From: Lutibacter sp.
Lineage (GTDB): Bacteria; Bacteroidota; Bacteroidia; Flavobacteriales; Flavobacteriaceae
Assembly (NCBI GenBank): GCA_002733665.1
Contig: NVWM01000033.1
Location: forward strand, 1 to 39,805
Reading direction: 5' to 3'
Length of the DNA: 39,805 nucleotides
The position numbers and the translations under genes were made by a program. A model generated the notes under the pieces. It was not told where the DNA came from. It made no database searches and worked only from the letters and a program-made list of their open reading frames with translations. Below, piece by piece: positions 33,245-34,254 of this stretch. Each line of letters opens with the position of its first letter. Positions within the stretch are counted from its first letter, which is position 1.

Positions 33245-33280
33245 AAACAGGTCTTTAATAAAAATTAAAGACCTGTTTTA
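33245..33280 (+). terminator. Terminator of the idi-manA operon
   Basis: A perfect 15-bp stem, AAACAGGTCTTTAAT (33245-33259) with ATTAAAGACCTGTTT (33264-33278), and a 4-A loop follow the manA stop by about 14 bp. The T-tract is short and partly in the stem. Confidence 0.9.
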
Positions 33281-33390: not shown

Positions 33391-33747
33391 TTAAGACACT
33401 TTTTTAACACTATTTTCTTTTAATAAAAAGCTAAAAAAGGCATTGCAGATAACATCATTGCAACTGTCTGATCTGACGACTTCAACAGTTATTTGAAGTT
33501 CATTTTTATCTAATTTTTTGATATTGCTACTCAATTGTAGACTATCATTAAGAAAAGCATTTTTTAAAATATTCAATTTTTTGAGAGCAGGTTTTGAAAT
33601 AATAACATGCTCAAATGGACTCACAGATTTTAAAACAAAAGTTTCCATTTTTTTATATAAAACATTTGGAAGAAGCGTTTTGTTATTATTTATATAGTTG
33701 TTGGTAACTATAAAGTTTGAAGTGTTTTTATTTATGATTCTTTCCAT
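33391..33747 (-). CDS. Hotdog-fold thioesterase-like protein (118 aa)
   Basis: I place this in the hotdog-fold acyl-CoA thioesterase group by pattern only. NKTLLPNVLYKKMETFVLKS corresponds to the N-terminal helix entry (usual form NxxGxLxGGxLMxWMDxxA); PALKKLNILKNAFLNDSLQL fits the strand with F-x-x-P/N and G-D; NIKKLDKNELQITVEV and NAFFSFLLKE fit the last strands. The Gly-Gly and catalytic Asp of classic YciA-like enzymes are replaced (MET at the MDE position), so activity is doubtful. It starts 4 bp after the 74-aa ORF and lies behind the attenuator-like leader at 34013-34254. Confidence 0.55.
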   Translation of the reverse strand: MERIINKNTSNFIVTNNYINNNKTLLPNVLYKKMETFVLKSVSPFEHVIISKPALKKLNILKNAFLNDSLQLSSNIKKLDKNELQITVEVVRSDSCNDVICNAFFSFLLKENSVKKVS

Positions 33748-33751
33748 AATA

Positions 33752-33976
33752 TTATGTTTCTAGATAGATGAGATTGGGAGTTAGTTTTTGATTGCTTTTG
33801 CTAAATTTAAGAACTGTTTGCATGTGTTTTAAAACCTGTTTGATAGATTGCATTGTTTTCATGTGTTTATATTTATTGTTTTCAATGGTCATGCTTCGAC
33901 TTCGCTCAGTACATGCATGCTGTTCGCTATCAATCATTCTTTTGGTTGATAATTTTTTTTTGTTTGCTCGTTTCAT
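33752..33976 (-). CDS. Uncertain 74-aa ORF carrying a palindromic repeat in frame
   Basis: A Lys/Gln/Met-rich ORF with no recognised domain. Residues ~20-30 (HACTERSRSMT) are encoded by the dispersed palindrome at 33887-33925, read in frame without a stop. After that come TIENNKYKHMKTMQSIKQVL and a basic tail. The start has a typical A/T-rich flavobacterial leader (AATTATGAAA), and only 4 bp separate its stop from the hotdog-like gene, which favours real translation. Against it, nothing matches a known family and the repeat may have created the frame. If real it is a small basic cytoplasmic protein, or a leader for the next gene. Confidence 0.4.
   Translation of the reverse strand: MKRANKKKLSTKRMIDSEQHACTERSRSMTIENNKYKHMKTMQSIKQVLKHMQTVLKFSKSNQKLTPNLIYLET
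33887..33925. repeat. ACTGAGCGAAGTCGAAG-type palindrome
   Basis: On the minus strand the core ACTGAGCGAAGTCGAAG lies between CATGCATGT and CATGACC, giving imperfect inverted arms. This repeat is widespread in Bacteroidota, is often read as CTERSRS in annotated ORFs, and is here embedded in the 74-aa ORF. Confidence 0.75.
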
Positions 33977-34006: not shown

Positions 34007-34040
34007 AAAAAAAAGGTGCTTTTCGTTAGAAAAGCACCTT
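34007..34040 (-). terminator. Intrinsic terminator, part of attenuator-like leader
   Basis: On the minus strand AAGGTGCTTTTC (34040-34029) pairs perfectly with GAAAAGCACCTT (34024-34013) around a 4-nt loop, followed by eight T. It lies 26 bp after the stop of the 49-codon ORF and 30 bp before the 74-aa ORF. GAAAAGCACC also occurs at 34099-34090 inside the 49-codon ORF and can pair with the same arm, so the terminator has a competing structure. Confidence 0.9.
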
Positions 34041-34065
34041 GTGGTTATTATTGGTTAATTTTTGG

Positions 34066-34215
34066 TTATTTATGTTTACAAAAATGATTGGTGCTTTTCT
34101 CAATATATATATGCTGTTTCTGAATCTTAGGCATATGCATTTTCGACCAAAGATTGCGAAGAATCGTGGTTGAAACAGTCATAATATGAGAAATAATGTG
34201 TTGCATTTTATTCAT
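34066..34215 (-). CDS. Putative 49-aa leader peptide
   Basis: A short ORF starting ATG AAT AAA and ending TAA. The peptide is rich in His (6 of 49: positions 6, 10, 27, 35, 44, 48) and Met (5), starts MNKMQHIISHIMTVS and ends TNHFCKHK. It has no signal or membrane segment. Evidence for translation: a consensus promoter directly upstream, the purine-rich GGGGGATAA just before the ATG, and a matched terminator downstream. Codons 39-42 encode EKST and contain the 10-nt segment that can pair with the terminator arm, so ribosome position would decide which hairpin forms. It could also be a free-standing small protein gene whose terminator merely shares sequence. I know no homologue. Confidence 0.55.
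   Translation of the reverse strand: MNKMQHIISHIMTVSTTILRNLWSKMHMPKIQKQHIYIEKSTNHFCKHK
34090..34099 (-). promoter_or_regulatory. Candidate antiterminator segment within the leader ORF
   Basis: GAAAAGCACC on the minus strand is identical to the 3' arm of the terminator and complementary to its 5' arm (34038-34029). Pairing 34099-34090 with 34038-34029 would prevent the terminator. The segment is located in codons 39-42 of the 49-codon ORF. Confidence 0.55.
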
Positions 34216-34223
34216 TTATCCCC

Positions 34224-34254
34224 CAAAAATAGAAATATTTTATTTCTTTCCAAA
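34224..34254 (-). promoter_or_regulatory. Consensus Bacteroidota promoter for the leader transcript
   Basis: On the minus strand TTTG (34254-34251) is followed after exactly 19 nt by TATTTTTG (34231-34224), matching the TTTG-N19-TAnnTTTG consensus in both boxes and spacing. The leader ATG is 8 nt further on. A second TAnnTTTG (TATATTTG, 34258-34251) overlaps the -33 box and might serve as an alternative. Confidence 0.7.

Follow-up and report, generated by a model that had tools for sequence, protein, structure and literature searches.

A conserved attenuator-like leader with two short open reading frames precedes the gene for a divergent hotdog-fold protein in Flavobacteriaceae

Leader peptides and competing hairpins are familiar ahead of amino-acid operons and drug-resistance genes, where leader-peptide attenuation is textbook knowledge; what, then, would such an arrangement be doing in front of a single gene for a hotdog-fold protein? 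The question is raised by a window of 39,805 nucleotides from a Lutibacter genome (contig NVWM01000033.1), in which all the elements of the leader lie on the minus strand. A sequence-only reading had placed there a promoter, a 49-codon open reading frame, an intrinsic terminator and a segment copied from that terminator, and the position of each of them held up. The promoter is of the Bacteroidetes type (34224..34254), with TTTG at 34254-34251, a spacer of 19 nt and TATTTTTG at 34231-34224. It is followed by the leader ORF, L1 (34066..34215), which has 49 codons from the ATG at 34215 and 46 from a genus-conserved ATG at 34206. The terminator is a perfect 12-bp stem (34040-34013) formed by a 5' arm, T5 (AAGGTGCTTTTC, 34029..34040), a TAAC loop (34028-34025) and a 3' arm, T3 (GAAAAGCACCTT, 34013..34024), with a run of six T's behind it (34007..34012). 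Within L1, the segment GAAAAGCACC (34090..34099; here AT, for anti-terminator) had been described as an exact copy of the terminator 3' arm that could pair with the 5' arm; this was confirmed by reading, AT at 34099-34090 being complementary to 34038-34029, and T5 is common to the terminator and the anti-terminator. Further downstream come a second short ORF, L2 (33752..33976), of 74 aa with a conserved core from the ATG at 33862, which stops 4 nt 5' of the hotdog ATG, and the target gene itself (33391..33747), encoding a 118-aa divergent protein predicted by AlphaFold2 and Foldseek to have a hotdog fold.

Both hairpins are stable for their composition. Folded alone, the terminator reaches -16.8 kcal/mol (z -7.5), and the alternative hairpin, with the 3' arm left out of the fold, -14.7 kcal/mol (z -4.7), with 0/200 shuffles as low in either case. 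Terminator-like sites number seven between 32500 and 35500, against a shuffle mean of 0.8. A separate 15-bp hairpin with a 4-base loop, at 33245-33278, lies just beyond the 3' end of a convergent gene that is named mannose-6-phosphate-isomerase-like by sequence appearance, and is probably a terminator.

The layout recurs throughout the genus. Among 14 genomes examined, some match was found in 13 and a real leader in 12; the two genomes lacking it, G010 (a false match, locus L014) and G007 (no match), are represented by assemblies that are 77-78% complete. Eleven of these leaders precede an intact hotdog gene, and the twelfth (L013, at about 1390-2050 of contig C1 in genome G002) keeps L1 and the terminator ahead of a frameshifted one. 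Relatives therefore retain L1, the copied segment and the terminator as a set, the leader being present in 12 of the 14 genomes, which is the outcome on which the sequence-only reading had staked itself, rather than survival of the terminator by itself. The named records closest to the window are from uncultured Flavobacteriaceae, followed by Urechidicola and Lutibacter genomes.

At the level of the family, a search of 397 genomes with a hotdog profile gave matches in 33, of which 29 (in 18 genera) were strong and four weak. Combining the family-search loci with those from named genomes and from the genus, and leaving out the weak matches in G083, G160 and G403 as well as L093 (the weak match in G279, an ordinary thioesterase-type hotdog without the leader), we obtained 44 distinct members. 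L1 and an intrinsic terminator lie upstream of the hotdog gene at 44/44 of these loci, nearly all from Flavobacteriaceae (for L091 the terminator arm T5, and for L048 the L1, was assigned by hand). Formosa, Mariniflexile and Lutibacter are among the culturable carriers. In every terminator a GTGC core is accompanied by a T run, the stem being perfect in 32 and bulged or imperfect in the other 12. A further 296 genomes of the order contributed five members from two other families, again with L1 and terminator in 5/5, so that the pair is present in all 49 family members read, across three families. As a control, we took ordinary hotdog thioesterases from a phylum search: of its 13 non-own places, 12 were read (L130-L141, thioesterases by appearance; L142 was left out), and 0/12 had a perfect terminator within 350 nt upstream, a criterion similar to the one that catches 32/44 members. 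Judged from these comparisons, the layout of L1 and two competing hairpins is kept over long evolutionary time in marine flavobacteria and some of their relatives.

The pairing of AT with T5 is visible in other leaders too. In 39/44 leaders, the final 40 nt of L1 contain a run of at least seven pairs over the T5 core, compared with 21% of early-L1 windows, 11% of downstream windows and 16% of shuffles; by this contiguous test L004, L011, L024, L035 and L089 have a weak AT or none. When the register is set to favour pairing, the AT:T5 core is paired in 41-44 of the 44 at five successive positions. Double changes from C-G to T-A are seen in L032 and L091, which belong to one genus, and in L090, and distant members change both sides, as in L125, where T5 reads GGTGCTTTCGAT and AT reads ATCGAAAGTATCT; in L127 the best duplex differs from the expected one. 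Among 24 leaders with distinct T5 sequences, each AT pairs with its own T5 at a mean of -13.06 kcal/mol versus -11.34 kcal/mol when partners are swapped, and in a hand-picked divergent set of 20 the values are -12.65 and -10.89 kcal/mol; in both, 0/5000 permutations were as good, in a test that ignores the relatedness of the leaders. Because the T5s all resemble one another, only 4/24 leaders pair best of all with their own T5, although it usually ranks high (with a median of 3.5 of the 23 others better). By the double changes and the permutations, then, the alternative pairing that the earlier reading had drawn from one genome covaries among relatives. Moreover, the pairing probability of the anti-terminator core before T3 is synthesized exceeds 0.5 in 42/44 leaders.

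Single leaders are less eloquent when set against synonymous-codon controls, falling below 0.05 in 13/44 by the contiguous score and 10/44 by energy, most being non-significant, although these controls are conservative as their codons are drawn from the L1s themselves. Such mostly weak individual results, and the shortness of the motifs, are what one would expect of chance hairpins in AT-rich DNA; but the placement of L1 together with the terminator in every member read from the three families, and the absence of any permutation matching the observed pairings, make chance a very improbable account.

L1 in turn behaves as a coding sequence. Its pooled pN/pS is 0.47 (19 pairs of L1s), its length changes are multiples of three in the window genus, and it is open as far as AT and closed ahead of T5 in 44/44 leaders versus 6.7% of dinucleotide shuffles, a comparison that flatters L1 since it had been picked as an ORF. 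Within the genus the peptides align with a conserved QKQ and a K-S stretch, and the KST codons are the anti-terminator segment; the Ser at AT is written AGC in 10/11 L1s with an intact hotdog gene, a codon that accounts for 7/129 Ser codons in nine window genes and is thus rare. From genus to genus the peptides diverge strongly, with QKQ and SQQW among the conserved stretches. Across the 44 leaders AT falls in all three reading frames of L1, and L049 retains it through a frame change, which argues that the nucleotides are conserved and not the peptide alone.

The sequence-only reading had begun L1 at 34215. In the genus, the conserved start is instead its Met4, nearly invariant (at least 90%) among 11 aligned L1s, and the true start codon is likely the ATG at 34206, as far as the alignment can tell. 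The first ATG of L050 makes its L1 too long, and it was trimmed for the coding, duplex, promoter, geometry and frame analyses. In 35/44 leaders a TAnnTTT[GA] box ends 4-9 nt 5' of the L1 ATG; the distance is 17-28 nt in 6/44, and 3/44 have no box within 45 nt. The fuller two-box match, TTG-N17-24-TAnnTTT[GA], is found upstream of L1 in 20/44 and between the terminator and the hotdog gene in 0/44; the lone -7 box occurs in 42/44 and 15/44 of these regions, at a density per 100 nt of 1.85 upstream of L1 versus 0.19 between terminator and hotdog gene. In Bacteroidota, transcription starts fall a few bases past the -7 box. Given this habit and the 4-9 nt left before the ATG, in most genera the L1 mRNA is probably leaderless or almost so. 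With the lone box present in 15/44, an internal promoter may precede some of the hotdog genes.

There is a rival reading, in which L1 is a functional small protein (or its transcript a terminated small RNA), the terminator ends that transcript, and the hotdog gene is served by constant read-through or by a weak promoter of its own. The selection on L1 with its QKQ and SQQW stretches, the retention of L1 and terminator in L013 despite the broken hotdog gene, and the internal -7 boxes could all be accommodated in this way; but the strong variation of the peptides by genus sits poorly with it, as does an AT that is kept across frames, covaries with T5 and would be superfluous for a plain terminator. 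We accordingly regard it as unlikely.

In light of these observations, it seems to us quite probable that the translating ribosome controls, by transcription attenuation in this leader, a single gene, the one encoding the divergent hotdog protein. Transcription would begin beside the L1 start codon, and RNA polymerase would make AT near the end of L1 and, in this genome, T5 about 50 nt later. A ribosome that keeps pace with the polymerase and lies over AT while T3 is made would leave T5 free to pair with T3, resulting in termination. Should translation of L1 be slow or arrested upstream of AT, AT would pair with T5, the terminator would fail to form, and transcription would continue across L2 and the hotdog gene, whose translation L2 would then probably couple or gate. 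Of the readings considered, the one in which translation of L1 would decide the outcome has the best support.

The spacing of the elements refines this scheme. From the AT core to the L1 stop the median distance is 16.5 nt (range 6-29), and from the stop to T5 it is 30 nt (range 24-39). Of the 11 genus leaders that precede an intact hotdog gene, nine have the 3' end of AT 21-22 nt upstream of the stop (of the remaining two, L004 has it at 17 nt and L011 has no clear segment), so that a ribosome on the stop codon would just have cleared AT and masking in the window genus must come from a ribosome in transit. The proposal that a ribosome finishing L1 covers AT hence does not suit the window genus, but it fits many other genera, where AT ends 1-10 nt before the stop. 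A second adjustment concerns the fate of a transcript without a ribosome, for which the earlier reading had foreseen read-through. RNAalifold pointed to a pairing of L1 codons 4-9 (AAGATGTCATATAA) with the anti-terminator region (TTATATGCATCTT), and the duplex test agreed in one clade, the pairing being strong in L028, L034, L048, L053, L055, L060 and L075. In that clade, where an early segment pairs with the anti-terminator, absence of a ribosome should give termination, and the forecast of read-through does not carry over to it. Overall, this protector (1:2) pairing falls below 0.05 in 14/44 leaders, with a median p of 0.30, and it is inconsistent in the window genus, L001 having 7 pairs at p 0.1. 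A universal trp-like protector segment was therefore dropped as not general and retained for the one clade only.

A pairing switch alone does not prove what decides between its two states, and the same terminator and anti-terminator could be governed by a ligand, a protein or a tRNA, in the manner of riboswitches, T-boxes or protein-controlled leaders. ACAG within L1 and ATA in the pre-terminator spacer are invariant in an alignment of 19 leaders. These unexplained invariant positions, together with the lack of a visible regulatory codon run in L1, could be taken to favour such a decider. Weighing against it, Rfam returned no cis-regulatory RNA match at the gathering score and nothing credible at a relaxed E-value, the only conserved structure seen besides the terminator is the 1:2 pairing of one clade, and L1 is under coding selection and open past AT in all 44 members. 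This too we hold to be improbable, and control by the ribosome translating L1 is the reading pursued below.

To what might such a ribosome respond? Reading of the 49 L1 peptides revealed no run of regulatory codons. The only recurrent candidate is a Trp codon, present singly in 32/49 and absent from 17/49; with the codon missing from so many L1s, starvation for Trp is not convincing as the trigger. Our best guess is general translation stress or a shortage of aminoacyl-tRNA. A variant compatible with attenuation would make the leader a sensor of antibiotics or other translation inhibitors, like those ahead of ABC-F, HflXr and topAI genes, and the hotdog protein a stress or resistance factor. 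The absence of an amino-acid codon run and the probably leaderless L1 agree with it, and in one clade a ribosome halted on the L1 start or within its first codons would mask the protector at codons 4-9; yet that segment is inconsistent in the window genus, and no connection of hotdog proteins with drugs that target the ribosome is known to us, leaving the variant less likely than not. In the antibiotic-sensing uORFs of toiL-topAI (PMC12121999), vmlR (PMC9226507) and HflXr (PMC6310831), stalling on the uORF is reported to change RNA structure, and at toiL tetracycline reportedly stalls ribosomes at the start or early codons. According to PMC12121999, toiL acts on translation and on Rho-dependent termination, whereas an intrinsic terminator and an unrelated target are found here.

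The second short ORF is nearly as constant as the first. L2 is present in 43/44 members (41 found by script, L044 by reading its twin L118, and L061 with a corrected hotdog start) and is missing from L092; in L118 it overlaps the hotdog start, and among the five order-level members a reading of L124 and L126 shows an L2-like ORF. Its stop lies 3-14 nt upstream of the hotdog ATG in the 41 loci. The 74-aa ORF reported by the sequence-only reading is indeed there, but as a longer version of an ORF that usually has 33-50 aa (39/41 listed loci, the window's included). The window L2 is about 28 codons longer than that of L004, its nearest relative, and the extra stretch is in frame and contains TGAGCGAAGTCGAAGC, which resembles a dispersed flavobacterial repeat. 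At the C-terminus, L2 ends in Pro-stop in 29/41 and in Tyr-Pro-stop in 20/41, the window's own ending being Thr-stop, and its last seven codons have a pN/pS of 0.21 versus 0.42 for the rest. The arrest peptide TnaC also ends in Pro-stop. From its position, L2 probably couples or gates translation of the hotdog gene. More speculatively, and with appreciably less confidence than we place in the attenuator itself, the two ORFs might constitute a tandem two-tier unit of the Flavobacteriales, in which a leaderless L1 gates transcription, L2 arrests or couples ribosomes, and the hotdog protein, possibly non-enzymatic, acts as an effector of translation stress; we hold this to be less likely than not.

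The target protein is predicted to adopt the hotdog fold (AlphaFold2 pLDDT 84.8), and the best Foldseek match is the acyl-CoA hydrolase 5egk, with an E of 6e-7, a TM-score (query) of 0.74 and 13% identity. Sequence searches give marginal matches only, both in Pfam and NCBIfam, where the best value, 5.7e-4, is that of one member with a FapR model, and in the PDB, where a thioesterase is matched at E 0.0026. The catalytic residue of YciA/PaaI-type hotdog enzymes is an Asp in the central helix, which fits the Asp43Ala mutant named in the title of 5egk. The corresponding YciA-like column is a gap in all 15 aligned members, though the gap may be an error of alignment; elsewhere in that stretch of the helix, one column has Glu in 13/25 (E35 in the window's protein), Lys in nine, Gln in two and Ser in one. 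Residue conservation thus speaks neither for nor against an active thioesterase.

How far is this leader from known ones? In the trp attenuator model, a leader ORF is combined with mutually exclusive terminator and anti-terminator structures. With the trp, his and phe leaders the present one shares the short ORF, the terminator, the mutually exclusive anti-terminator and, in one clade, the 1:2 protector; it differs in having no regulatory codon run, a single hotdog target in place of a biosynthetic one, and a second ORF after the terminator. Bacteroidota initiate translation independently of Shine-Dalgarno sites, and it is in this phylum that the attenuator-like leader is tied, without exception among the members read, to a hotdog protein as yet uncharacterised. 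Given its conservation, one can readily test whether the coupling of transcription to translation in Bacteroidota is tight enough for attenuation by ribosomes, and identification of the trigger would lead quickly towards what the hotdog protein does. Leader-peptide attenuation has been proposed within the same family, from 5' RNAs upstream of amino-acid biosynthesis operons in Flavobacterium psychrophilum, with structured 5' elements at pheA, hisG, ftsY, acsA, alaS and rimP (PMC9723704); the section of that paper on attenuators does not name a hotdog gene, and the paper also states the absence of Shine-Dalgarno sites. For the Sinorhizobium meliloti trpL, PMC7298713 reports a transcript that begins at the ATG of a 14-aa leader ORF before the trp genes, which is leaderless, as predicted here for most genera; unlike anything proposed for L1, both the small RNA and the peptide of trpL are trans-acting. 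In the open-licence literature on flavobacterial and Bacteroidetes attenuation, hotdog leaders, arrest peptides, leaderless attenuators and antibiotic uORFs, we found neither this leader nor a tandem attenuator with a hotdog effector described. Within the literature searched, the kind of mechanism is thus known, and the leader and its target appear to be undescribed. Together, the comparative observations indicate that the leader is real, old and conserved, attenuator-like in its anatomy, and set apart by the unusual gene that it precedes and by the presence of L2.

Finally, we asked whether the leader serves other genes. In its own genome, no further copy of the leader DNA was found besides the window; a slightly longer query gave one more match, of 39 nt over the promoter region (E 7e-4, L020). 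A covariance model built from 19 hotdog leaders was run on 299 family genomes, and all 12 matches above 55 bits are at hotdog loci, several of them being the model's own sequences. Below 55 bits, hotdog and other loci mix: a match of 53.3 bits in G076 is a gene-end terminator, and the window itself scores 42.3. There are many weaker matches, one of them a second match in the window's own genome. Of 16 lower-scoring loci that were read, one is a hotdog locus (L118), fourteen are at or near gene ends, and L117 is ambiguous; a regulon extending beyond hotdog genes was thus set aside, none appearing among these 16. In several Flavobacteriaceae the leader model also matches terminators between OmpH-like and glutamate-racemase-like genes (L108, L110, L111, L116 and L123), both so named from the appearance of their sequences.
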